Origin: a virus
Virus record (IMG/VR): IMGVR_UViG_3300046516_000399
Span: 1 to 25,673 of that record
Direction: 5' to 3' (one strand)
DNA: 25,673 nt
The notes beneath the pieces are model-generated. The model had not been told where the DNA came from. It did not search any database and was given only the letters and a program-made list of their open reading frames with translations. How positions within the stretch are numbered: position 1 is the first letter of the stretch; every line of letters starts with the position of its first letter. This document shows positions 500 to 20,086 of the stretch, piece after piece. The position numbers were made by a program, and so were the translations under genes.

Positions 500-576
500 C
501 GCGCGGTAGAGCAGTCCAGTAGCTCACCTGGTTCATACCCAGGAGGTCGTGGGAGCGAAGCCCACCTGCGCCACCA
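500..576 (+). tRNA. tRNA-Met-like (CAT anticodon), CCA encoded, aberrant T and D loops
   Basis: A full cloverleaf can be drawn. The acceptor is 500-506 with 566-572, the D stem 509-512 with 522-525, and the anticodon stem 527-531 with 539-543. The anticodon loop is TTCATAC with CAT at 534-536, the variable loop has five bases, and the T stem is 549-553 with 561-565. The discriminator is A573 and CCA is encoded at 574-576. All stems pair except the first acceptor pair, which is C-C. Initiator tRNAs also have an unpaired 1-72 position, but the three G-C pairs of the initiator anticodon stem are not all present. The T loop reads AGCGAAG instead of TTCRANN and the D loop lacks the GG pair. The T54, T55 and G18 positions that make the elbow are therefore changed. 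CAT could decode Met, or Ile if the C is modified. It may be a specialised or decaying phage tRNA. Confidence 0.8.
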
Positions 577-5416: not shown

Positions 5417-5836
5417 GTGACGAACCCCATCTACATCCCGCTGATGCCGCGCACGAAGCGCCCCATCAAGGCGGCCACCCGCTGGTCCGATCTCTCCGTG
5501 GACGAGGCAGTCATCGGCCGCTGGTGGGATGCCGCGCCCGAGGACGCCAACACCGCGCTCCGGCTCGACGGCTTGCTCGTGATCGACTGCGACTCCGAGG
5601 AGGCGGCCTGGTGGTGGATGAGCCAACCGGGGTGGGAGACGGACACCATCGTCGCCACTCCGCACGGGCTCCACTTCTACTACGTCCTCCCCGAGGGGGT
5701 CGAGGCCCCGCCCGCCGGTGCGATGAAGCACCCGGACGGACGGCCGCGAGGCGTGGACGTGAAGACGGGGGCAGGGCACTATGTCCTGGTTCCTCCCAGT
5801 AAGAACGAAGAAGGCGTGGCCTACCGGTGGATGTGA
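5417..5836 (+). CDS. Prim-Pol domain DNA primase/polymerase
   Basis: A 139-residue stand-alone Prim-Pol (archaeo-eukaryotic primase superfamily) domain that would make primers for phage replication. The three catalytic blocks are visible: D57-C-D59 in VIDCD, then TPHGLHFYY with H83 and H86, then GVDVKTGAGHYVLVPPS with D114. The size is that of the N-terminal catalytic domain of larger bifunctional primase-helicases. The alpha-helical PriCT-like part and the helicase lie on the next, overlapping frame. Start GTG 5417 has GGAGGA upstream. The frame ends in TGA 5834-5836 with no sign of decay, so the split looks like a natural gene boundary and not a sequencing error. Confidence 0.85.
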   Translation: MTNPIYIPLMPRTKRPIKAATRWSDLSVDEAVIGRWWDAAPEDANTALRLDGLLVIDCDSEEAAWWWMSQPGWETDTIVATPHGLHFYYVLPEGVEAPPAGAMKHPDGRPRGVDVKTGAGHYVLVPPSKNEEGVAYRWM

Positions 5837-7215
5837 GCTGGGCGAAGGACCGGAAGGACCCGTACGCAGCCCCCGTGGTCGCCTCCGAGGCGCTGACGGC
5901 TCTTGCTCAGGCACGGAGCCAGGAGCCCTCACGGCGGCAGAGGGGCGCACAGAGCCCCGAATCCGGGTTCGCCAAGCTGCCGTCCGGGGACCGCAACAAC
6001 ACGGTGGCCTCCCTGGCGGGCTGGGCGCGAGCCCGAGGGCTCGACGTGGATGCCGTGAACCGGCTCCTCAACGGCTTCAACGGGGCCTTCTTCGAGGAGC
6101 CCCTGGGCGCTGATGAGCTGCTGGGCGTGGTGAGCCAGGCCGGGCAGTGGGAGGCCGGTGGGCAGACCATCGAGATCATCATGGACGACGAGCCCGCCGA
6201 GGGCGAGGATCGTCCCGCCATCCTGAAGGCCAGCCGGATGACAAAGCCGCCGCCGATGCCGTGGCTCTGGAAGCCCTGGCTCCCCGAGGGCCGCCTCGTG
6301 CTGCTCGTGGGCGACGAGGGGATCGGCAAGGGCATGTTCTCCGCCCACTGCGCTGTGAAGGCCGTGAGCGGCGAGTTCGGCGACCCGGCTGACGTGATGT
6401 GGTTCTCGATCGAGGACGACCCCGAGGAGGACATCTACAAGCGACTGCTCTCCGCCGGGTACGACTCCGACCGGCACCAGGAGGTGCACTTCTTCAACCC
6501 CGACCTGCCCGTCGGGTTCCCGCTGAACATCCCCGAGGTCGAGAAGTACATCGTGGCGAACGGCATCAAGCTGGTCATCATCGACCCAGGACGGTCGTAC
6601 CTGTCCGGCGAGGAGGGTGTCGAAAAGTCGTTCAACAACGACGTATTCGTGGGCACCGCGCTGCGTGCGATCAACCGAATGGCGGCCCGCACCGGCGCGA
6701 CCGTGCTGTTCATCCACCACACGAACAAGAACGCTGACGCCTCGCGCCGCCACAAGAGCGGCGGCTCCGCTGCGTTCAGCCAGGCTGCACGTCACCGGGT
6801 GGACGTGGCGAAGGCCGGGACGGACGAGTGGGCCGAGTGGGCGATGGCGGTCACGAAGACGAACTACGGCGTCGAGGGCTTCCTCACCGAGTACCGCCTC
6901 GTGGCCGATGAGGAGAACGACACGGCCAAGTTCGAGATGGGCGAGCCCGTGCACCGTCACCGCACTCTGGACATCTGGCAGAAAGAGCGCGAGAAGGAAC
7001 TAGGTGAGCCAGAAGTGGACATTGCCGACAGCGACAAGCTCGCCTTCGCTCTCGACGGCGCGACGCTCCGGGGCTCGATCGTCCCGAACCGTGACGAGCT
7101 GATCCGGCTCTCCCGACTCCCCCGAAGCCGCATCCAGGCCGCCGTGGACGAGCTGATCGAGGAGGGCCGGATCGTGCAGGACGGCGACACGACCCGCCGA
7201 AAGTGGCTCGGATGA
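5827..7215 (+). CDS. RepA-like hexameric replicative helicase with PriCT-like N-terminus
   Basis: A 462-residue RecA-fold helicase (AAA_25/RepA type). Residues about 50-110 resemble the PriCT helical domain that normally follows Prim-Pol (GDRNNTVASLAGWARARG, then a D-E-L-L-G-V-V helix). Walker A (GDEGIGKG) is at 162-169, Walker B (LVIIDP) at 249-254, and a downstream FIHHTNK motif acts as sensor. The last about 70 residues look like a winged helix. GTG 5827 overlaps the Prim-Pol frame by 10 bases; GTG 5833 would give the GTGA overlap common here. GAAGG (5810-5814) favours 5827. Together with the preceding gene it makes a two-subunit primase-helicase. Confidence 0.87.
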   Translation: MDVSWAKDRKDPYAAPVVASEALTALAQARSQEPSRRQRGAQSPESGFAKLPSGDRNNTVASLAGWARARGLDVDAVNRLLNGFNGAFFEEPLGADELLGVVSQAGQWEAGGQTIEIIMDDEPAEGEDRPAILKASRMTKPPPMPWLWKPWLPEGRLVLLVGDEGIGKGMFSAHCAVKAVSGEFGDPADVMWFSIEDDPEEDIYKRLLSAGYDSDRHQEVHFFNPDLPVGFPLNIPEVEKYIVANGIKLVIIDPGRSYLSGEEGVEKSFNNDVFVGTALRAINRMAARTGATVLFIHHTNKNADASRRHKSGGSAAFSQAARHRVDVAKAGTDEWAEWAMAVTKTNYGVEGFLTEYRLVADEENDTAKFEMGEPVHRHRTLDIWQKEREKELGEPEVDIADSDKLAFALDGATLRGSIVPNRDELIRLSRLPRSRIQAAVDELIEEGRIVQDGDTTRRKWLG

Positions 7216-7357: not shown

Positions 7358-9316
7358 ATGCTCGTGACAGACCGAACCACCCTCGCCACCATCATCGAAG
7401 ACGTGCTCCGCCTCACCCCCGAGGAGAGCATCGCCATCGACACCGAGACGAGCGGGCTGCACACGTACCAGGACGACTACGCCATCGGGATGAGCCTCAC
7501 CTACCCAGGCGAGATCGTGCCCGAGGGCGAGGAGCCCATCCTGCTCGATTGGTACATCCCGATCAACTCGCCCGACTCGATCAACTTCGACGTGCGGGAG
7601 CTGGTCGAGGCGCTCGCCGCCACGAAGGCGGAGCACGTCTTCCACCACGCCGAGTTCGACTGGGCCGTGCTCGCCAAGGCGTCGGGCGGTGTGGAGCTAC
7701 ACGAGCACCGCTACTGGGACACGCAGACGATCGACTGGCTGCTGGACGAGAACAACGACCATCGACTGAAGGAGGGGCTCGGCGTCCGGTACTTCGGCAT
7801 CGAGGCCAAGGACAAGAAGGACGAGCTGAAGGCCATCATCAACGGCCGCCGGTGGCAGGATGTCTACAAGGAGCTGCGCAACGGTGACGACCCGCAGTAC
7901 ACCGGGCGGGGCACGACCGAGGCGGCCAAGGCGGAGGCACAGCGCATCGCCGAGGAGAGCAAGCGGTCGTGGGGCTCACTGACAGCCGCAGAGACGCACG
8001 AGTACGCCGAGAAGGACACGAACCTCACCTACCGTGCCCGGTTCGAGCAGGCCAAGCAGATCGAGAACTGGCACCACTACCAGATCGCCACGGACGTGCG
8101 CCCCGACATCGAGCGCGAGTTCGCCTTCCAGCGGGTGCTCTACAAGATGATGAAGGTCGGCATCAAGGTGAACCCGCTCGCCGCCGAGAATAGCCGCGCA
8201 CGGGCGCTGGACCGCATCGCTGAGATCGAGCCGCTGTTCGACGGCGTGAACCTGGCGAGCACGAAGCAACTGCGCGAGCTGATCTACGACACCTGGGGGG
8301 TGCCGATTACGAAGCGCACGAAGGGCGGCGAGGGCTCAACCGACAAAGACACGCTGCAAGAGCTGGAGGGCTCGCACCCGAACGTGGATGCCATCCTCGA
8401 ATACCGCAGCCTTACCAAGGCCGTCGGCACGTACTACAACGCGCTCATCACGAAGCGCGACGCCGGTGACCGCATCCACACGAGCTTTGCCATGAACCGC
8501 ACGGTGACCGGGCGGCTCTCGTCGTCCGACCCGAACCTCCAGAACATCCCGAAGCAGAGCACCAACGCCGAGGTGCGTGCGGTGTTCGTGGCCGAGCCCG
8601 GCCTGGAGCTGTGGGAGTACGACCTGAGCGCCGCCGAGATGCGGGTGATGGCCGGGTGGTCGGGTGACGAGGCGTTGACCGCCGCCGTGCTCGACCCGTC
8701 GATCGACGTGCACCTTCAGACCGCCATCGGGATATGGGGCGAAGCCGTCGTCACCGAGTCGAAGGACTCGATCGAGAAGTACCGCACGCTGGCGAAGAAC
8801 GTCGGCTACGGCTACCCCTACGGCATCGGCGAACGCAAGATCGCCGGGTACATCGTGAAGGGCACCGGGCGACCGGTGAACGACTCCGATGTAGCGCAGG
8901 GCAAGCTCATCAAGAGCGGCTACGAGCGCACCTACCCCGGCTTGGCTCGGCTGATGAAGGGCACGCAGCGCGAGGTCGAGCGCCTCGGGTACATCCCGCT
9001 GCACGTTCCCGGCAGGTTCCGGCGGTATAAGGGTCCCGGCTACCGGGTTTGGGAGACTTATACGGCGCTCAACAGCATCGTGCAGGGAGCCATCGGCGAG
9101 TTCGTGAAGGACGTGATGCTGCGCTTCGACCCGCACCCTTTGCACGGCGGCACCGGGGTGTGTAGGATGGCGCTCCAGATTCACGACTCCCTCGTAATCG
9201 AGGTAGTTCCTGGGAATGGAGAGCGCGTGCTCGGTGTTCTCCAAGAGATCGCAGACGACATCAACCCGTTCCCGCTCCGCATGGAGTGGGACGCCAAGCA
9301 ATGGGGAGCCAAGTGA
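7358..9316 (+). CDS. Family A DNA polymerase with 3'-5' exonuclease
   Basis: A 652-residue polymerase I-type replicative DNA polymerase. The proofreading exonuclease begins with D28-x-E30 (AIDTETSG). Polymerase motif A is YDLSAAEMR with D422. The O-helix motif B reads R476-x3-K480-x3-Y484-x3-Y488-G, with Tyr at the place where E. coli Pol I has Phe762 and T7 has Tyr. Motif C is QIHDS with H609 and D610, where Ser replaces the usual Glu after HD. There is no room for a 5'-3' exonuclease domain, as in many phage Pol A proteins. Start ATG 7358 follows GAGAGG. Confidence 0.95.
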   Translation: MLVTDRTTLATIIEDVLRLTPEESIAIDTETSGLHTYQDDYAIGMSLTYPGEIVPEGEEPILLDWYIPINSPDSINFDVRELVEALAATKAEHVFHHAEFDWAVLAKASGGVELHEHRYWDTQTIDWLLDENNDHRLKEGLGVRYFGIEAKDKKDELKAIINGRRWQDVYKELRNGDDPQYTGRGTTEAAKAEAQRIAEESKRSWGSLTAAETHEYAEKDTNLTYRARFEQAKQIENWHHYQIATDVRPDIEREFAFQRVLYKMMKVGIKVNPLAAENSRARALDRIAEIEPLFDGVNLASTKQLRELIYDTWGVPITKRTKGGEGSTDKDTLQELEGSHPNVDAILEYRSLTKAVGTYYNALITKRDAGDRIHTSFAMNRTVTGRLSSSDPNLQNIPKQSTNAEVRAVFVAEPGLELWEYDLSAAEMRVMAGWSGDEALTAAVLDPSIDVHLQTAIGIWGEAVVTESKDSIEKYRTLAKNVGYGYPYGIGERKIAGYIVKGTGRPVNDSDVAQGKLIKSGYERTYPGLARLMKGTQREVERLGYIPLHVPGRFRRYKGPGYRVWETYTALNSIVQGAIGEFVKDVMLRFDPHPLHGGTGVCRMALQIHDSLVIEVVPGNGERVLGVLQEIADDINPFPLRMEWDAKQWGAK

Positions 9317-9732: not shown

Positions 9733-10031
9733 AGAACGCCTCGCACGAGTCCTGTCTCGCCGGGTGGGAGCTGTTCAAGGCGGCGGCCGAGCTGATGCCC
9801 GGCTGCACGTTCGGGCACGTCCGCAGCGGACGAGTGCCGTGGCCCGACCACGACGTGATTGGTCGTCGTCTCATCAACCGCGGGCTCGACCCGGTGAGCG
9901 CGAGCACCTTCGCCGGCTTCAAGCGCCTGTTCCGTGAGGGCAGGGATTACAAGACGCGCAACGAGGTGCACTACCCCAACATCACGCCCGATCCTGATTG
10001 GGTTCCGGTGGCGTTCGGGGCGTACGAATGA
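9729..10031 (+). CDS. Hypothetical protein, 100 aa
   Basis: ATGA overlap with the previous gene. The protein is basic in the middle (VIGRRLINRG, FKRLFREGRDYKTRN) and could be nucleic-acid binding, but no motif is diagnostic. I do not recognise a family. Confidence 0.75.
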   Translation: MKNASHESCLAGWELFKAAAELMPGCTFGHVRSGRVPWPDHDVIGRRLINRGLDPVSASTFAGFKRLFREGRDYKTRNEVHYPNITPDPDWVPVAFGAYE

Positions 10032-10285: not shown

Positions 10286-10542
10286 TCCGCTGGCTGCGTA
10301 AGCTGGCGTGGTGGCGCAAGCTGGCGTGGTGGCGCAAGACTGCGCCCGACGATCGGTGGTGGGAAGACGGCTGGCCGGTGTCGGTGCTGCCGTTCTCCGG
10401 CGTGTTCCAGGTGGTGATGCGACGCCAGGTGTGCGCCGCTGAGTGGGAGATGACGCTCGACCTGCACCGCCAGGTGTGGGGTGACCCATACAGCTCGCCG
10501 TGGCCTCGCAAGGAGCTGACCGGGCTGCGTGGCATCCTGTGA
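10282..10542 (+). CDS. Small Trp-rich protein with MIRWL start, 86 aa (copy 2)
   Basis: GTGA overlap with the previous gene and the same opening as that gene (MIRWL). Residues 7-18 contain a duplicated KLAWWR unit from an 18-base tandem repeat, giving an amphipathic Trp/Arg/Lys-rich segment that could associate with membranes or nucleic acid. The remainder is a compact unknown region with more Trp residues. It looks like a partial duplicate of the preceding gene's start joined to another body. Confidence 0.7.
   Translation: MIRWLRKLAWWRKLAWWRKTAPDDRWWEDGWPVSVLPFSGVFQVVMRRQVCAAEWEMTLDLHRQVWGDPYSSPWPRKELTGLRGIL
10300..10335 (+). repeat. 18-bp perfect tandem duplication inside a gene
   Basis: AAGCTGGCGTGGTGGCGC occurs twice head to tail (10300-10317 and 10318-10335), followed by another AAG. 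It is in frame and encodes KLAWWR twice. This is most simply a recent slippage duplication. Confidence 0.95.
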
Positions 10543-10907
10543 GCTGGTCGTCCGAGCTGAAGCGGCGCTACAACATGAGCGTCGAGGAGTACAAGGAGCT
10601 GCTTGACAAGCAAGGTGGGCGCTGCGCGTTCTGTCGCAAGAAGCCGCGCGCCCGTGACCCTCGCCTCGCGGTCGATCACGACCACCGAAGCGGCCTGGTG
10701 CGCGGCCTGCTCTGCAAGCGTTGCAACCACGACTTGCTCGGCTTCTTCGGCGAAGACCCGGACTACTACCAGCGCATCGCCGACTACCTGCGTCGGCCAC
10801 CTGCGCGCGCGCTGTTCAGTGCTAAGTTTGTCCCTGACTCGATCGGGAATGTTCTCGGCGAGCAAGCGGTTCTACCAGCATCACCCAACGAAAGGAGAGC
10901 TACATGA
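10539..10907 (+). CDS. Endonuclease VII-like HNH nuclease (copy 1)
   Basis: A 122-residue nuclease of the T4 endonuclease VII (gp49) type, which cuts branched DNA such as Holliday junctions. The zinc site is C29-x2-C32 with C59-x2-C62. The catalytic block is VDHDH (D46, H47, D48, H49), followed by GLVRGLLC and N63, the usual family pattern. GTGA overlap with the previous gene fixes the start. In the replication context a junction resolvase is likely; a free-standing homing-type role is the alternative. The C-terminal about 35 residues are unlike the second copy at 13887. Confidence 0.9.
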   Translation: MSWSSELKRRYNMSVEEYKELLDKQGGRCAFCRKKPRARDPRLAVDHDHRSGLVRGLLCKRCNHDLLGFFGEDPDYYQRIADYLRRPPARALFSAKFVPDSIGNVLGEQAVLPASPNERRAT

Positions 10908-13483: not shown

Positions 13484-13890
13484 GCGCCGCCGACGGGATG
13501 CGCACGGACCAGCTCCGGCGCGAGGTCGAGCGGACGGCGAGCAAGAAGCGCGCCGCCTTCTCGGTGGCGATCGACTTCGATGGCACGCTGATGGAGCCCA
13601 CCGGCCGACGCTTCAGCAACTTCGACCTGGGCCGTCCAATGGCGGGCGCTCAGCAGTTCGTCTCTCGGCTCGTGCAGTCGGGCGCGACGTGCTTCGTGCA
13701 CTCCGTCCGAGCAAACGACACCGAGGGTAAGGTTGCGATCACCGCCTGGCTCCGGCGTTACAGCTTCCCCAACATGGAGATCGTTGGGAAGCCGCACGCC
13801 GAGGTCTACGTGGATGACCGAGGTCTGCACTTCGACAACTGGTCGCACGTCTACTCTGAGATAGTTCGACAGAGGGGCCGTGATTCGTGA
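13480..13890 (+). CDS. HAD-superfamily phosphatase
   Basis: A 136-residue haloacid dehalogenase-type hydrolase. Motif I is D32-F-D34-G-T (nucleophile and acid/base), motif II is S75 in FVHSVRAND, and motifs III and IV are K104 and VDD (D112, D113). There is no large cap domain, so macromolecular or nucleotide phosphates are plausible, as for the phosphatase half of polynucleotide kinase. GTGA overlap with the phosphoesterase gene fixes the start and suggests joint function in nucleotide or end processing. Confidence 0.88.
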   Translation: MSAADGMRTDQLRREVERTASKKRAAFSVAIDFDGTLMEPTGRRFSNFDLGRPMAGAQQFVSRLVQSGATCFVHSVRANDTEGKVAITAWLRRYSFPNMEIVGKPHAEVYVDDRGLHFDNWSHVYSEIVRQRGRDS

Positions 13891-14240
13891 GCAACAATAC
13901 GGCTGAGTATGCGCGGGCATGGAGAGCCAACCTCTCCCCTGACCATCGCGCTCGTGTCCTAGCTGGACAACGCCGTGCGGCGCTGAAACGCGTCTACGGT
14001 ATAACGCCGGAACAGTTCGATGCCATGCTCGAAGCGCAGGGCGGGATGTGCGCAATCTGCGGCACCAACAAGCCGGGTGGTAATGGTCGGCGATTTCACG
14101 TCGATCACGACCACGCAACCGGAGTGGTAAGAGGACTTCTCTGCCACAACTGTAATCGTGGCCTGGGATGGTTCGGTGACGACCCAACTACAGTGTCCGT
14201 AGCGGCCGAGTATCTTCGGCTGAAGGGAAGGGAAAGCTGA
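13887..14240 (+). CDS. Endonuclease VII-like HNH nuclease (copy 2)
   Basis: A 117-residue second member of the endonuclease VII family. The zinc site is C55-x2-C58 and C86-x2-C89, with VDHDH at 72-76, GVVRGLLC at 79-86 and N90. It has about 35 extra N-terminal residues and lacks the C-terminal tail of the copy at 10539. The codon choice is looser than in neighbours (for example GGTATAACG, TGTAATCG), which hints at separate acquisition, perhaps as a mobile HNH gene. GTGA overlap with the HAD gene. Confidence 0.88.
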   Translation: MSNNTAEYARAWRANLSPDHRARVLAGQRRAALKRVYGITPEQFDAMLEAQGGMCAICGTNKPGGNGRRFHVDHDHATGVVRGLLCHNCNRGLGWFGDDPTTVSVAAEYLRLKGRES

Positions 14241-15417: not shown

Positions 15418-15684
15418 CTAGTTCGTGGGGCAGGGCTCCACGTCGTTGACGGTGCGGACCACGCACGTCGCTGTGCCGATCTGCACTCGAGCCGGTCGGT
15501 CGTTGCTCGGGTCGGGCGTGTTGCCCACGAGCACGAGGGCGACGAACATCAGGATCGCCACGATGGCTGCGATCAGGATACGCTTCGCCATCTGACGCCG
15601 TTTGATGGTACGCAGTACTTCGTACGTGACATCCTCCCAAATACCACTTAGGTTATCCACGATGACCAGAGCTTTGACGTACAA
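15418..15684 (-). CDS. Single-pass membrane protein, 88 aa
   Basis: The last gene of the leftward operon. TTG 15684 directly abuts the stop of the preceding gene and has an excellent GGAGGAGG site 8 bases upstream. ATG 15591 is an alternative start, giving 57 residues, but lacks a ribosome site. A basic stretch (TIKRRQMAKR) precedes one hydrophobic helix at about 35-54, implying an inside N-terminus and an outside C-terminus. The outer tail carries two Cys that could form a disulfide. The role is unknown; an envelope function such as superinfection exclusion is only a guess. Confidence 0.7.
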   Translation of the reverse strand: MYVKALVIVDNLSGIWEDVTYEVLRTIKRRQMAKRILIAAIVAILMFVALVLVGNTPDPSNDRPARVQIGTATCVVRTVNDVEPCPTN

Positions 15685-15840
15685 CTACTTCACCTCCTCC
15701 GGTGCTGGCTTCAGCCACGTCAGGCGCTTGCGCGGGTCCTTGGCCTTGGGGCACTGGTGACCCACCTCGTCGCTGGCGTGCACGGTCAGGTAGACCTTCG
15801 GGCACCCGTTCGGGCACACGAGCTTCAGCTCTGCCGCCAT
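15685..15840 (-). CDS. Small Cys/His-rich protein, 51 aa
   Basis: ATG 15840 shares one base with the stop of the upstream gene and its own TAG abuts the next gene's TTG. It has C-x3-C (CPNGC) followed by H and H-x-C (GHQC), a plausible zinc-binding site, then a basic segment (KAKDPRKRL). No family is recognised. Confidence 0.68.
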   Translation of the reverse strand: MAAELKLVCPNGCPKVYLTVHASDEVGHQCPKAKDPRKRLTWLKPAPEEVK

Positions 15841-16181
15841 CAGACGAACACCGACGTGGCACCGAAGGCGGAGTCGTGCGGGTTGAACACCTTGACGCCA
15901 TCCACCTCGATCTTCTCGTCAGCCTCGTGGCAGGCGAGGTAGTGGACGAGGCCACGGATGACCTTGACCGCCTCCTCGACCGTCTCGTAGTACGAGTCCA
16001 CGATGAGCACCCGGCACACGCTGAACTGCGCGCCCTCCTTGAATGTGTCGTCGGTGGTGCAGATGGCCTGGAGCACGCACTTGTCGGTGTGCTCGTAGTC
16101 GGCGATCTGCAAGGCGGCGAACGTGGTACCGGGGTATGTGACCCGCTCGCACACGTCGCCGAGGTAGATTGCCTTGGGCAT
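15840..16181 (-). CDS. Hypothetical protein, 113 aa
   Basis: The frame is open upstream to 16250, but ATG 16181 is preferred because AAGGAGACAGG lies directly before it and the longer version would run through the spacer hairpin. It has alternating strands and helices with four Cys scattered. No family is recognised. Confidence 0.75.
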   Translation of the reverse strand: MPKAIYLGDVCERVTYPGTTFAALQIADYEHTDKCVLQAICTTDDTFKEGAQFSVCRVLIVDSYYETVEEAVKVIRGLVHYLACHEADEKIEVDGVKVFNPHDSAFGATSVFV

Positions 16182-16218
16182 CCTGTCTCCTTGTCTCCGG
16201 GCTTCGATCGAGCGCCGG

Positions 16219-16253
16219 AGGAAGCACCCTAGCACACAGCCAAGGTGCAACCT
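16219..16253 (-). promoter_or_regulatory. Spacer hairpin copy A (UU/UU internal-loop family)
   Basis: On the transcribed strand: AGG, TT, GCACC, a long loop, GGTGC, TT, CCT. It begins 7 bases (GCCACGA) after the stop codon of the phosphoribosyltransferase gene. Inner stem 5 bp, outer stem AGG-CCT. Confidence 0.65.
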
Positions 16254-16260
16254 TCGTGGC

Positions 16261-16836
16261 TCAGGTCCAGCTCACTCCGTCCACGTTGCCCGTGACGGTA
16301 CTCACTTCGTTACTCCAAGGGTCGATCTCTGGCCGTACTTCCGGCGTTACGACTCCAGTCTCCAGCTTCCATCCACCCTCCTTGTGTCCGTATCCGTAGC
16401 GGTCGGCTCGCGCTTCCGTCGCTCCGACATCGAGCCAGGTTCCTTCCTGCTGGTACAGCCACGCACCGACGTACCGAGTGCCGTGGGAGGGCTGGCGGTA
16501 GCCCCACTCATCGAACGGTCCACGGAACGCTTCGACCACGGCGTTATGCACTCGTCGGAACGTCTTGCCGGAGTCCATCAGGTCATCTACGAACACCCAT
16601 CGCTCGCCGATCACACCTTCGATCGACCACGATGAGTGCGACCCGTCCTCGGGCTTGCGCACGACTGCCCACGTCACTCCGAACGCCTGGGCGAGTGTGG
16701 GGATCACGAGAGCCCCGGACAGCCCCGAGCCGACGATAGTGTCGAACTGGTGGTCACCCAGTCGCCCGTCGATGGCCTTTCGGACGATGCCCGCAGGGTC
16801 AAGTGCGCCCGCTGCGTACACGTTGCCAAACTCCAT
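16261..16836 (-). CDS. Phosphoribosyltransferase family protein
   Basis: A 191-residue type I phosphoribosyltransferase. The PRPP-binding loop is VFVDDLMDSGKT with D84, D85 and the SGKT turn at 89-92. The upstream VGSGLSGALVIP loop (35-46) and VVRKPEDGSH (58-67) match the PRPP and pyrophosphate loops. Such enzymes join a base to PRPP or act in salvage; the substrate hood, about 100-190, is not one I recognise. ATG 16836 has GAGGAG 8 bases upstream. It is the only well-known enzyme family in this half of the operon. Confidence 0.83.
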   Translation of the reverse strand: MEFGNVYAAGALDPAGIVRKAIDGRLGDHQFDTIVGSGLSGALVIPTLAQAFGVTWAVVRKPEDGSHSSWSIEGVIGERWVFVDDLMDSGKTFRRVHNAVVEAFRGPFDEWGYRQPSHGTRYVGAWLYQQEGTWLDVGATEARADRYGYGHKEGGWKLETGVVTPEVRPEIDPWSNEVSTVTGNVDGVSWT

Positions 16837-16872
16837 GACTTCTGCTCCTCTGTGTGCCGGTCTAAGCGCCGG

Positions 16873-16905
16873 AGGAAGGGCACCGGCTACGCCAGTGCCC
16901 AACCT
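16873..16905 (-). promoter_or_regulatory. Spacer hairpin copy B (UU/UU internal-loop family)
   Basis: On the transcribed strand: AGG, TT, GGGCACTGGC, GTA, GCCGGTGCCC, TT, CCT. The inner stem has 10 pairs (one G-T) and the outer stem is AGG-CCT. It begins 7 bases (GCCACGA) after the TAA of the 110-residue gene. Confidence 0.8.
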
Positions 16906-16912
16906 TCGTGGC

Positions 16913-17245
16913 TTAGGCGGGGTCAGCGGTGGCGAGGTCCTGGTCCAGGTTGGACTTGATGACCCTCGTTGCACTGGCAACCACGGTGGCGATGAGGGTG
17001 CGGGCGTCCCGCTCCTCGTCGCTCACGTCGTCCACGAGGAACGACAGATCGAGCACGGTGCCCAACGCCTCCACGATGTCGATGGAGTTGACGAGCGACT
17101 GCGCTTCCGCTGCGCTCACCGGGGCCTGCGAGAACTGCCGACCCTCGAAGGGCTCGGCCTGTCCTCCGACCGTGGTGCGTGCGTCGATCCCGGCCCGGAA
17201 CGCTTCCTGCTGCTTCCGTCGTGCTCCATTGTCGTATGCGTGCAT
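16913..17245 (-). CDS. Hypothetical protein, 110 aa
   Basis: ATG 17245 follows CAGGAGACACC. The first 25 residues are basic (ARRKQQEAFRAGIDAR) and the rest is helical and acidic, with two long amphipathic helices. No family is recognised. The gene is flanked on both sides by the spacer hairpins. Confidence 0.75.
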   Translation of the reverse strand: MHAYDNGARRKQQEAFRAGIDARTTVGGQAEPFEGRQFSQAPVSAAEAQSLVNSIDIVEALGTVLDLSFLVDDVSDEERDARTLIATVVASATRVIKSNLDQDLATADPA

Positions 17246-17281
17246 GGTGTCTCCTGTCTCCGTGCTCACGGTGAGCGCCGG

Positions 17282-17318
17282 GCGAAGTGCACGAGCCTAA
17301 CAGGTCCGTGCACAACGC
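17282..17318 (-). promoter_or_regulatory. Spacer hairpin copy C (UU/UU internal-loop family)
   Basis: On the transcribed strand: GCG, TT, GTGCACG, 13-base loop, CGTGCAC, TT, CGC. Compared with copies A and B the outer stem has changed on both sides (GCG-CGC instead of AGG-CCT). It begins 7 bases (GCCACGA) after a TGA. Confidence 0.8.
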
Positions 17319-17325
17319 TCGTGGC

Positions 17326-17790
17326 TCAGTCTCCCGTGTATCCGCCGGTCGGCCCGTTCGGGTCGCCGGTGCGGTCGTAGTGCCAGGCGATTGCCTGGTC
17401 GGTGTCGGTGAAGATGATGCCATCGAAGAACTGCTCAGGCTTGTCCCACTGAAGGCTGGCGTTTCCGTGGATACGGCGCACGACGTACCACTGGTAGTCC
17501 CGCTGGTAGACAGCGACGAGCTTCTGCGCTGCGTTGAGGCGCTGCTTTGTGGTCACGCTGCGGTAGCCACACGAATCGAGCACCACTCGCCCGTTCTTGC
17601 GCCACTGGACGATCAGATGCCCGTGAAGCAGCAGACCGAACCCCGGCGAGTCATCCGGGTGCACGATGAGACGGCACACCTTGGTATTGTTGGCAACGGT
17701 GGCGAGGTTGACTTGACCCTTGCCCTTGTCCTTGCCGTTGAGGAACCGTGCGGCATCGCCGTACGACTGGGGAAGATCACGTACAGTCAC
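17326..17790 (-). CDS. Conserved phage protein of unknown function, 154 aa
   Basis: GTG 17790 overlaps the stop of the 40-residue gene (GTGA). Residues about 30-85 follow a pattern seen in many actinophage proteins: VANNT, then a short strand pair, LLLHGHLIVQW, G-R-V-VLDSCGYRSVTTK-RLN. Its function is unknown. A C-terminal Gly/Pro-rich tail (GDPNGPTGGYTGD) follows. Confidence 0.8.
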   Translation of the reverse strand: MTVRDLPQSYGDAARFLNGKDKGKGQVNLATVANNTKVCRLIVHPDDSPGFGLLLHGHLIVQWRKNGRVVLDSCGYRSVTTKQRLNAAQKLVAVYQRDYQWYVVRRIHGNASLQWDKPEQFFDGIIFTDTDQAIAWHYDRTGDPNGPTGGYTGD

Positions 17791-17909
17791 TTGGACTCCT
17801 TGGGCTTCTGAACCGTGACCTTGACGCCACGGTTGCGCAGACGACGGGCCAGGCGGTCGATCTCCGCCTGTGTCGCCCTCGTCTGCGCCTTGTCTCCGAC
17901 GGTCGGCAT
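17787..17909 (-). CDS. Small basic helical protein, 40 aa
   Basis: ATG 17909 has GGAGGAG 8 bases upstream and the gene ends in a GTGA overlap with the next. The sequence is strongly basic (RLARRLRNRGVKVTVQKPK) and mostly helical, suggesting a nucleic-acid or partner-binding peptide. No family is recognised. The strong ribosome site and overlap support it despite its length. Confidence 0.7.
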   Translation of the reverse strand: MPTVGDKAQTRATQAEIDRLARRLRNRGVKVTVQKPKESK

Positions 17910-17950
17910 GACTACTGCTCCTCCTCGTAACCGGTCGCTCTAAGCTCCGG

Positions 17951-17980
17951 GCAGAGCGCACGCCGGAGCGTGCGCAATGC
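17951..17980 (-). promoter_or_regulatory. Spacer hairpin copy D (UU/UC internal-loop family)
   Basis: On the transcribed strand: GCA, TT, GCGCACGC, TCCG, GCGTGCGC, TC, TGC. The inner stem has 8 perfect pairs and the outer stem GCA-TGC is again compensated. It begins 7 bases (GCCACGA) after a TGA. This is the only copy with a TC instead of TT on the 3' side. Confidence 0.8.
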
Positions 17981-17987
17981 TCGTGGC

Positions 17988-18272
17988 TCAGATGCCGCCG
18001 CTGTGGTCGATCTCCTCGTAACCACAAGCGGCGCAGCGGGTGTCCACGTAGTAAACCTGCTCTTCTCCTCGTGACGGGCCGTACGTGATGCGTGATACTA
18101 GCGCACGAGCGCCACACGCCGGGCACCATTCGATGACGCCGATAAATAGCCGACCGGCGTTGTTCCTTTGTAGTGAGATAGTGGGGCGTAGCGTAAGCGT
18201 TACGCTGCCATCCTCACTCAGCTCGGCGCTACCGCTGCCGACCACGGTAAATGGTGACGGATTCTCGCACAC
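17988..18272 (-). CDS. Zinc-ribbon protein, 94 aa
   Basis: GTG 18272 has AGAGGAGG 8 bases upstream. After a beta-rich N-terminal half there are two knuckles, CPAC and CAAC, about 30 residues apart, which makes a zinc ribbon. Such domains are common in nucleic-acid-binding or adaptor proteins. The exact role is unknown. Confidence 0.75.
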   Translation of the reverse strand: MCENPSPFTVVGSGSAELSEDGSVTLTLRPTISLQRNNAGRLFIGVIEWCPACGARALVSRITYGPSRGEEQVYYVDTRCAACGYEEIDHSGGI

Positions 18273-18312
18273 GTCGTAATCCTCCTCTGATGGATGTCCC
18301 GCAAGACTGCGG

Positions 18313-18344
18313 GCGAAGTGCACCGGTCGCCCGATGCACAACGC
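18313..18344 (-). promoter_or_regulatory. Spacer hairpin copy E (UU/UU internal-loop family)
   Basis: On the transcribed strand: GCG, TT, GTGCATCGG, GCGA, CCGGTGCAC, TT, CGC. The inner stem has 9 pairs (one T-G). It begins 11 bases after the TAA of the 107-residue gene; the GCCACGA leader is replaced by a related GTGTGA. Confidence 0.8.
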
Positions 18345-18355
18345 TCACACTCCTG

Positions 18356-18679
18356 TTAGGAGTACAGCTCCGACTCCGCAGCGGTAACAGCGATAGCATC
18401 CTGCTGATACCTGATGCACAGCGTGTGCAGAGCGGTACGGAAGGGTAACCATGCGAAACGGTCGTCGGCGAAGAACGCAAGACACCCGGCCTCCTCCTCC
18501 TTACCCTCCCACGTTCCGCACCCGGTACCGTCGAAGTGCACACTGCCGCCGCACTCCTCCGCCACGCTGCGCAGCTCGTGACGAAACTCTCCCCATTCCC
18601 ACTGGGTCAGCTCGTCGCCGACCTTGACCGAGTACCGGCCGCCGATGGTGCGCCCGAAACCTAGCGTTACGTTGTCCAC
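18356..18679 (-). CDS. Hypothetical protein, 107 aa
   Basis: GTG 18679 is chosen because GGAGGAG then sits 5 bases upstream; GTG 18685 would leave no spacing. The first twelve bases (GTGGACAACGTA) match the start of the 47-residue gene upstream apart from the first letter. The protein mixes strands and helices, has three Cys, and is not recognised. Confidence 0.73.
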   Translation of the reverse strand: MDNVTLGFGRTIGGRYSVKVGDELTQWEWGEFRHELRSVAEECGGSVHFDGTGCGTWEGKEEEAGCLAFFADDRFAWLPFRTALHTLCIRYQQDAIAVTAAESELYS

Positions 18680-18699
18680 GTTCACTCCTCCTCGTCACT

Positions 18700-18732
18700 G
18701 CCACCCTAGTGGGTGGCACGCCGGTAGTGCAA
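18700..18732 (-). promoter_or_regulatory. Degenerate spacer hairpin copy F plus a second hairpin
   Basis: Directly after the TAG of the 47-residue gene comes TTGCAC, a 7-base loop and GTGC, which keeps the TT and the GCAC-GTGC core of the family but no outer stem. It is followed by a separate perfect hairpin, GCCACCC-ACTA-GGGTGGC (18700-18717). It is either a decayed family member or a replacement. Confidence 0.5.
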
Positions 18733-18876
18733 CTACTGAGCCTCCTCGCACCGGTATGCTCTGGCGATGTCGTCGCCGGTCGGGATGTTGAGCACTAGGG
18801 CCTCCTCTGCGGACTCCTCCGCCCGTCGAGCCTCCCAGTAGTCCACGCTGCTGATGATCCGTTCTACGTTGTCCAT
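18733..18876 (-). CDS. Small acidic protein, 47 aa
   Basis: ATG 18876 has AAGGAG 6 bases upstream, 11 bases after the stop of the glycosylase-like gene. It is a short, helical, Glu/Ala-rich protein (ARRAEESAEEALV). It shares its first codons with the gene at 18679. No family is recognised. Confidence 0.65.
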   Translation of the reverse strand: MDNVERIISSVDYWEARRAEESAEEALVLNIPTGDDIARAYRCEEAQ

Positions 18877-18887
18877 TGCTCTCCTTG

Positions 18888-19532
18888 TCATAGTGTGAAG
18901 GTCAGTTGATCTTGCGCCCGATCCCGTGCCGCCCATCCGGGTGCAGTCTCGTTGCGCCACTGGAGCCACGTAGCGGCTTGTACGACGTGCGGAGCGAGTC
19001 CGAGCGCCGATGCTGCGCACCGGTACGCATCGGCCACGTAGTCGTAGACTCCGACTCGCTCCAGTACCTTCCTTTCCCGATTAGTGAGCGTGCGCCCGAG
19101 CGCCACGGCTACAGCGTGCCGGTCTACGCAAACGGTAAACCAATCGGCGAAAGGCTCGGCGATTAGTGCAAAGAAAGCCCGCACTTTCCGGCCGCCTAGA
19201 ACGCTATCGGGAGTCTCCCCATCGACTAGTATTGCGTTCGCTCGTCGGCAGAATAGCCGAGTATGACCACTGGCATTATCGTCCGCATACGCACGCTTAG
19301 CGAGACGGACGTTTAGGTCCCATGATGTTTGCGGGGAGAGTGCCGCAATCACTCCGGCGGCACGAGCTGGGGCCTCGGGGTCAAGCTCGCACGCTACGTG
19401 GTGCGCATCGGCATACCATGCCGCGCCCGAGTCCCGAACGTGGTCACTCGCACGCTCCCACGTAGCGAGAATGTGACCCACGAGCGTGGGCAAGTCTGCG
19501 CCAAGCGTGACGCTAGGGTGCTGCGCAGTCAT
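18888..19532 (-). CDS. Conserved phage protein, possible DNA-glycosylase-like fold (DUF7178-like)
   Basis: A 214-residue, mostly helical protein. Recognisable blocks are AAWYADAHHVA (about 38-48), GVIAALSPQTSWDLN, VLGGRKVRAFFALI, and VCVDRHAVAVALGR, followed by VQAATWLQWR. They resemble a family found in many actinophages that I associate with DUF7178 and with HhH-GPD DNA-glycosylase-like folds; the Asp in VDRHA would be the candidate catalytic residue. This assignment is by pattern memory, not a search. The start overlaps the stop of the 53-residue gene (ATGA). Base use (CTA, CGA, ATA codons) is looser than in the replication genes. Confidence 0.7.
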   Translation of the reverse strand: MTAQHPSVTLGADLPTLVGHILATWERASDHVRDSGAAWYADAHHVACELDPEAPARAAGVIAALSPQTSWDLNVRLAKRAYADDNASGHTRLFCRRANAILVDGETPDSVLGGRKVRAFFALIAEPFADWFTVCVDRHAVAVALGRTLTNRERKVLERVGVYDYVADAYRCAASALGLAPHVVQAATWLQWRNETAPGWAARDRAQDQLTFTL

Positions 19533-19690
19533 GCCGACACCTCGAGGAGTAGTTCGGCGATTCGACGGTCAAGGTCGAATGAGGCGAACGCTTGACGGAG
19601 TGCACCGCTCTCGCAGTCGGCACGATGCGGGGCGTCCGCACCTCGCCCACACTCACGGCAGATGCTCCGCTGCTCTGTCTGGTCAGTCAT
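19529..19690 (-). CDS. Small Cys-rich protein, 53 aa
   Basis: ATG 19690 follows AAGGAC and the gene ends in an ATGA overlap with the glycosylase-like gene. C-x2-C (CREC) followed by H-x3-C (HRADC) is a likely single zinc site; the C-terminal half is a helix. Coupling to the next gene suggests a partner role. No family is recognised. Confidence 0.68.
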   Translation of the reverse strand: MTDQTEQRSICRECGRGADAPHRADCESGALRQAFASFDLDRRIAELLLEVSA

Positions 19691-19715
19691 GGTCAGTCCT
19701 TGTGGTCGAATCGGT

Positions 19716-19751
19716 CTAGGAAGCGCACCGGCGAACCGGTGCGCAACCTAG
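19716..19751 (-). promoter_or_regulatory. Spacer hairpin copy G (UU/UU internal-loop family, most complete)
   Basis: On the transcribed strand: CTAGG, TT, GCGCACCGG, TTCG, CCGGTGCGC, TT, CCTAG. The outer stem has 5 pairs, the inner 9, and the loop is a UUCG-type tetraloop. It begins 5 bases after the TGA of the 109-residue gene. It is the best-formed copy and the first encountered in the operon. Confidence 0.88.
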
Positions 19752-19756
19752 GCCGG

Positions 19757-20086
19757 TCAGGCTCGGGAAATGGAGCGGATCGACGCCAGTGGGTACGTGG
19801 CGTGGATTGTGCCGTCCCGAGTGCCGCACTCGATACGGTCGGACCAGATGGTGTGGATGTACGCACGAGGGGCCGTTGCTCCGCCATGTAGCGTGATGCG
19901 GTAGGGCCGAAATCCCCCGTAGACCAGACGATCCACGTCGTCTGCGCTGATCTGATCGTCTCCGCTCACTGTCACGCTCAGCGTCTCTCCGCCTGGCGCG
20001 GGCGGCACCGGCTCCGCCCAGTAATTCTCCGCCGCTTGCTCCGCCTGGTCGTAGGTCGGACTCTGATGCTTCGCAATCTCAGCCAT
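19757..20086 (-). CDS. Hypothetical protein, 109 aa
   Basis: ATG 20086 with AAGGAGG four bases upstream; a longer frame to 20140 has no ribosome site. Residues 1-30 are polar and helical, then a beta-rich domain follows (LSVTVSGDD, YRITLHGG, YIHTIW, TIHATY). The 12 bases CGACCACAAGGA before its start are repeated before the gene at 19690. No family is recognised. Confidence 0.78.
   Translation of the reverse strand: MAEIAKHQSPTYDQAEQAAENYWAEPVPPAPGGETLSVTVSGDDQISADDVDRLVYGGFRPYRITLHGGATAPRAYIHTIWSDRIECGTRDGTIHATYPLASIRSISRA

Follow-up and report, generated by a model that had tools for sequence, protein, structure and literature searches.

Six spacers of a leftward early operon were found to hold hairpins of one design (H1 to H6) in the viral DNA analysed here, a linear fragment of 25,673 bases from IMG/VR record IMGVR_UViG_3300046516_000399, referred to as the window. 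These elements form one structured intergenic RNA family, and with slightly better than even confidence we read them as processing signals at which early polycistronic phage messenger RNA (mRNA) would be split, probably by the ribonuclease III (RNase III) of the host. Their structure, covariation, position and recurrence in other phages can be read directly from sequence; cleavage, the enzyme involved and an effect on expression are inferred.

Architecture and covariation of the six hairpins

A previous sequence-only reading of the window had placed six hairpins on the transcribed (minus) strand, and this was borne out by the sequence and by folding of the spacers. The elements, with lengths in base pairs (bp), were located using minimum free energy (MFE) folds, a covariance model (CM) and a sequence-free structural descriptor:

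H1, 19707..19759, minus strand: basal 3 bp including stop codon TGA of the preceding gene, CGG/CCG, 1x1 C.A, CTAGG/CCTAG, TT/TT, 9 bp, loop TTCG (spacer MFE fold; CM, 63.2 bits)
H2, 18302..18355, minus strand: 5 bp, 1x1, 4 bp, 1x1 A.C, GCG/CGC, TT/TT, 9 bp; stop codon TAA directly ahead and unpaired (fold, CM, descriptor)
H3, 17939..17992, minus strand: basal TCTGAGC/GCTTAGA including stop codon TGA, 2x2 CA/GA, CG/CG, A.C, GCA/TGC, TT/TC, 8 bp, loop TCCG (fold, CM, descriptor)
H4, 17272..17328, minus strand: basal TGAGC/GCTCA including stop codon TGA, CA/GC, CG/CG, A.C, GCG/CGC, TT/TT, 8 bp (fold, CM, descriptor)
H5, 16862..16916, minus strand: basal CTAAGC/GCTTAG including stop codon TAA, CA/GC, CG/CG, A.C, AGG/CCT, TT/TT, 10 bp (fold, CM, descriptor)
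H6, 16209..16263, minus strand: basal TGAGC/GCTCG including stop codon TGA, CA/GC, CG/CG, A.C, AGG/CCT, TT/TT, 10 bp with G.U pairs (fold, CM, descriptor; the ten pairs all in register in the MAFFT alignment)

From base to tip, the full ladder consists of a basal stem, a 2x2 loop, 2 bp, a 1x1 A.C mismatch, 3 bp, a UU/UU internal loop, 8-10 bp and a terminal loop, with H1 and H2 having the same ladder on different lower rungs. Each element is a quasi-continuous hairpin of about 25 rungs and 53-57 nucleotides (nt), beginning at the upstream stop codon and ending 16-30 nt ahead of the next start codon, so that the ribosome site is left free. The upper part of this design had been described correctly from the sequence, including all six outer stems (AGG/CCT, AGG/CCT, GCG/CGC, GCA/TGC, GCG/CGC and CTAGG/CCTAG) and the internal loop, which is TT/TT in five copies and TT/TC in one. 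The 2x2 and 1x1 loops beneath the outer stem had been missed, together with a third, basal helix of 5-7 bp in which, according to the spacer folds, the end of the upstream gene pairs with the conserved 3' flank. As this helix takes in the stop codon in five of the six copies, the earlier statement that copies begin 5-11 nt past a stop codon was incomplete. Of the flanks that had been called alike, GGCGCTTAGACC was found exactly in a single copy, and the partial likeness elsewhere corresponds to the 3' strand of the basal helix. The GCAC-GTGC core attributed to every copy is not universal, with GTGCATCGG/CCGGTGCAC found in the copy at 18313.

To measure covariation, the six copies were aligned with MAFFT alone and the structure was then applied, with shuffles and slid registers as controls. 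In this alignment 94% of cells were paired and 11 of 20 pairs were altered on both sides, giving a covariation score of 0.60, compared to 0.26 for shuffles (0 of 500 reached the observed score) and at most 0.12 for slid registers. A count of G.U versus A.C pairs was biased by the stem definition and was not used. The covariance model built from the six copies scored them at 63-74 bits; its only additional strong matches in the window were the complements of the copies themselves and the best unrelated match scored 15.9 bits, in agreement with the claim that the rest of the window holds no copies.

Of the seven spacers in the operon that exceed 40 nt, six were found to fold 2.1-4.3 standard deviations (s.d.) below dinucleotide shuffles. 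The mean spacer folding energy by this measure lay 3.0 s.d. below shuffles for the window, 4.1 and 4.6 s.d. for phage contigs L018 and L019 (described below) and 2.0 s.d. for the isolated Streptomyces phage Dagobah; among comparison phages the values were 1.1 and 1.2 s.d. (two of the Streptomyces BD-type) and 0.9 s.d. (mycobacteriophage A-type). The sequence data show an RNA-shaped constraint at the junctions between genes in early operons. An operator acting as double-stranded DNA is excluded, because there is free variation in the stems and TT/TT would not make a palindrome in a DNA duplex. The proposal that selection acts on an RNA structure, and not on a DNA operator, was upheld by the covariation, by pyrimidine mismatches kept while all stems change, and by the ladder's presence in three other contigs.

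Related ladders in other phages

The same ladder was found at stop codons in three phage contigs unrelated in sequence (L018, L112 and L139); an absence of related spacers elsewhere, which had been named as grounds for abandoning the idea, is thereby refuted. Contig L018 (IMGVR_UViG_3300036798_000335) was reached via an alignment of DUF7178 proteins. Its early operon, divergent from a large-terminase-like open reading frame (ORF), carries the ladder at four places, the leader and three of the spacers, one example being CTGAG-GT-CA-G-CGGA-TT-8bp ... TT-TCCG-G-TG-CA-CTCAG, whose basal stem includes the stop codon. The leader copy precedes the first gene, and no coding sequence was recognised upstream of it. 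A second DUF7178 alignment search led to L112, where the ladder has TT/TT and A.C and the neighbouring ArdC-like and DUF7178 genes are again the same. It also led to L139/L132, where TT/TT or CT/TT occurs with G.G, along with CCT/TTA variants. The stop codon lies in the basal stem in most of these relatives, as it does in a spacer copy of the ladder in Dagobah, which has a UA/GU loop.

Counts across phages were made on a hand alignment of 14 copies, since MAFFT misaligned the relatives. All 16 pair positions showed double changes, so that the covariation spans four phages. The 2x2 loop was TT/TT in 11 copies, and the 1x1 mismatch was A/C in eight and G/G in five (13 in total). When a strict descriptor free of sequence was run over 1.68 Mb, 12 matches were obtained in the window, L018, L112 and L139, of which 11 were at a stop codon; the 20 further matches came mostly from a small number of coding sequences found repeatedly, and 6-9 matches were obtained in Markov controls. 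A model built from the window alone independently matched L138 (E 4e-4), at stop codons and without UU/UU. A looser class, that of long stop-codon hairpins with at least two symmetric loops, was observed at 59 junctions versus 18.0 expected, out of 1439 candidates in the loci that were covered.

Several further contigs carry hairpins at gene junctions. In L138, a 122-kb phage contig, stop-codon hairpins with a related ladder and without UU/UU were observed at 7096-7158, 7379-7440, 8148-8207, 9911-9972 and 15831-15887, one of these being the match at E 4e-4. In the early operon of the 108-kb phage contig L019 (1028-7341), a long hairpin with almost no bulges is present at most non-overlapping junctions, and its stem often includes the stop codon. 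The DUF7178 gene of this contig (5605-6205) appears to be split across overlapping frames (5605-5742 and 5693-6205), through a frameshift or an assembly error. Junction hairpins that recur with different sequences (CCGCTTAGGGAGTCGGAC..., ACAAAAAACGCGTAACCC...) are common to L099 (14962, 2541) and L100 (16433, 14239, 884), and are apparently another such family.

Other searches yielded no additional members. Sequence-pattern searches of viral contigs returned only chance matches or L018 itself. Model R1 gave eight matches below E 0.01 per genome among 395 genomes of the class Actinomycetes, none of which was accepted on inspection: in several, either the upper stem or the loops were missing, and another two were ordinary AA/TT palindromic hairpins. 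No ladder was found by model R1 in the named Streptomyces BD-type and mycobacteriophage A-type relatives, whose spacers fold near shuffle level, nor was one found in Streptomyces prophage regions of genomes G017 and G420. Against Rfam 15, the only matches that reached the gathering threshold were to tRNAs, one of them in the window and the others in contigs L008 and L019. The best sub-threshold likeness of the hairpins was to a microRNA precursor, itself an RNase III-type substrate, which is only suggestive. A search of the literature, in which subscription journals were thinly covered, found no description of such hairpins.

Proposed role in mRNA processing

The reading of the hairpins as processing signals is drawn from their parallel with the early sites of phage T7 and from the reported cutting of an intergenic hairpin with a symmetric loop by RNase III of Streptomyces coelicolor. 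A double-strand-specific endoribonuclease, probably host RNase III, would bind the irregular helix of two turns, with the position of cutting fixed by the kept symmetric loops (UU/UU, A.C or G.G, and 2x2). The early mRNA would be split into mono- or oligocistronic units, the upstream unit keeping a 3' hairpin arm and the downstream unit gaining a processed 5' end. The placement of the hairpins is consistent with this, as they are found at gaps of the operon and at none of its tight or overlapping junctions. Among the roles listed by the sequence-only reading, which chose none, RNase processing fits best, while terminators and recombination seams fit poorly.

Several observations weigh against this reading. 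Folding energy is similar on both strands, so that the transcribed strand is not singled out. The cross-phage pairing percentage is partly circular, its members having been found by pairing, which does not apply to the kept mismatch letters. The loops of the T7 sites are asymmetric and their core sequence is common to them, neither of which is true of the window hairpins. Lastly, the loop letters are conserved within each phage, which an RNase III reading structure alone would not need, and this makes a protein that reads sequence possible. Such a phage or host RNA-binding protein could recognise the ladder of UU/UU and 1x1 mismatch and control translation or decay of each unit without cutting. 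This is rather unlikely: any one phage keeps its unpaired letters as its stems vary, and 5x5 segments recur within a phage (CACGA/CCGGC in the window, TCAG/GTGC in L018), but the loop letters vary between phages and Pfam and PHROG scans of operon proteins recognised no candidate RNA-binding protein. A broader proposal, that of a phage-wide RNA punctuation, is advanced tentatively, as possible at a low probability. Each phage would have its own ladder at most early-operon junctions, a dedicated phage or host factor would read UU/UU and the 1x1 mismatch, and the units would be processed or controlled together.

The strong folding of the hairpins, which start from the stop codon and take up most of the spacer, would also suit passive barriers that stabilise upstream messages by blocking 3' exonucleases or by shielding untranslated spacer from Rho. 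Such barriers would have no need of kept mismatches, however, and with a copy in L018 ahead of the first gene and no recognised coding sequence upstream, this explanation is considered unlikely. Termination of transcription is less probable still, given that no T-tract follows the hairpins (0-2 T within the ten bases after each and no T-run, minus strand), that no sigma-70-like promoter was found between the copies, and that L018 has its leader copy. Intrinsic terminators without U-tracts, of the type of the phiC31 early region, have been reported (Ingham 1995, as cited in PMC8355165) and the stems here are GC-rich, but six in series, 16-30 nt from the next start and with no promoter found in between, would silence downstream genes. 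With internal loops also conserved, such a function is regarded as very unlikely. The possibility that the hairpins are translation insulators, closing over the stop codon and preventing reinitiation or readthrough into the next cistron, draws on the stop codons in the basal stem of five window copies and most relatives. This pairing is, however, only modestly above that in shuffles that keep the stop codon (16 of 20 versus 10.6 in the window, L018 and L019), and the L018 leader copy has no recognised stop codon, making insulation highly improbable. Least credible are single-stranded DNA recombination seams or mobile repeats (attC-like or REP-like) that spread genes along with a hairpin. Copies are alike within a phage and both strands fold similarly, yet stems vary freely with compensation and copies occur only in spacers of one strand. 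The conserved GTTRRRY and RYYYAAC boxes of attC sites were not found in the six hairpins, all of which were read, the only match to GTTRRRY being in H5. Regarding REP/BIME elements, defined by a conserved palindrome and a RAYT transposase, the copies differ in the sequence of their stems; no search for a RAYT was made.

Operon context and comparison with known systems

The window virus is, as judged from its gene products, an actinophage without close sequenced relatives, since its polymerase, phosphoribosyltransferase and kinase match actinophages weakly and its DUF7178 protein has matches at 34-42%. Single-protein searches with the phosphoribosyltransferase, DUF7178 protein and DNA polymerase as queries found no close relative; relatives were reached only through the DUF7178 alignments. 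H1 to H6 occupy six of the seven gaps longer than 40 nt in the operon, the features of which are as follows:

15418..20086, minus strand: leftward early operon carrying H1 to H6, about 13 small genes, divergently transcribed (ORFs and sequence reading)
18888..19532, minus strand: gene for DUF7178 protein (PF23802; Pfam E 6e-50), a marker common to other hairpin-bearing operons
18686..18732, minus strand: the only gap longer than 40 nt without a family hairpin, holding a simple unrelated hairpin, TGCCACCC-ACTA-GGGTGGCA (fold; z -1.8)
17326..17790, minus strand: Kyano_Gp96-like gene upstream of H4 (PF23790, E 1e-8)
16261..16836, minus strand: phosphoribosyltransferase-like gene between H5 and H6 (PHROG 2068, E 8e-31; Pfam PF00156 under cut-off)

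Elsewhere in the window, a tRNA-Met(CAT) gene (500-576, plus strand) lies within a helicase-like ORF starting at 374; the annotated start of this ORF is therefore probably too early. ORFs 10500-10907 and 13887-14240 (both plus strand) appear endonuclease VII/HNH-like, have in common a DHDH...GLLC.CN motif (identified by eye only) and are possibly paralogous homing genes.

Start-associated and extended start-associated sequences (SAS/ESAS) of cluster K mycobacteriophages, which are defined by the sequence GGGATAGGAGCCC and 17-nt repeats (PMC12699233), are likewise repeated inverted-repeat elements near gene starts, located in actinophage right arms. The earlier reading had held that the present design differs from them. 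Allowing up to two mismatches, GGGATAGGAGCCC was matched in the window only at 7525 (two mismatches, chance level) and not near the hairpins, and identity with SAS/ESAS was rejected. The U-less terminators of phiC31, on the account given of them in the citing work, are similar in belonging to an actinophage early region and lacking a U-tract, whereas the window hairpins are within an operon, have no intervening promoters and keep their internal loops. For the rpsO-pnp intergenic hairpin of S. coelicolor, RNase III is reported to cleave on either side of a symmetric [4/4] loop (PMC10126417). This hairpin too lies between genes of an actinobacterial operon and has an internal loop that is symmetric, but it is a single bacterial site with a [4/4] loop, whereas the window hairpins are a repeated phage family.

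The family provides a strongly covarying and testable set of sites, including a look-alike in the isolated phage Dagobah. Its host, S. coelicolor, is one for which a viable RNase III null mutant has reportedly been published. The results show that a junction element can hold its shape through complete turnover of sequence, which is why sequence searches miss it.

T7 is the textbook case of early mRNA processing by RNase III, and its early spacers R0.3, R0.5, R1, R1.1 and R1.3 are established cleavage sites of this enzyme. To our knowledge, and in the literature searched, such processing has not been described for actinophages. When the T7 early spacers were folded in the same way as those of the window, upper stems of 9-13 bp were obtained, with a small internal loop and a lower helix beneath in R0.3, R0.5 and R1. 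R1 folded as 2 bp, 1x1, 5 bp, 2x3 and 9 bp, compared to 8-10 bp, 2x2, 3 bp, 1x1 and more helix in the window copies. In both sets, a single hairpin design is repeated between the genes of a polycistronic early mRNA of a phage, and the hairpins are irregular, with close to two helical turns. The R0.5 stem begins at the stop codon of gene 0.4, as the window copies do at theirs, and R0.3 is a leader copy, as is that before the first gene of L018. The sets differ in that the symmetric 2x2 and 1x1 loops of the window stand in place of asymmetric ones, on another core. By this analogy, the window hairpins, while not members of the T7 group by sequence or loop type, may work as its RNase III sites do.

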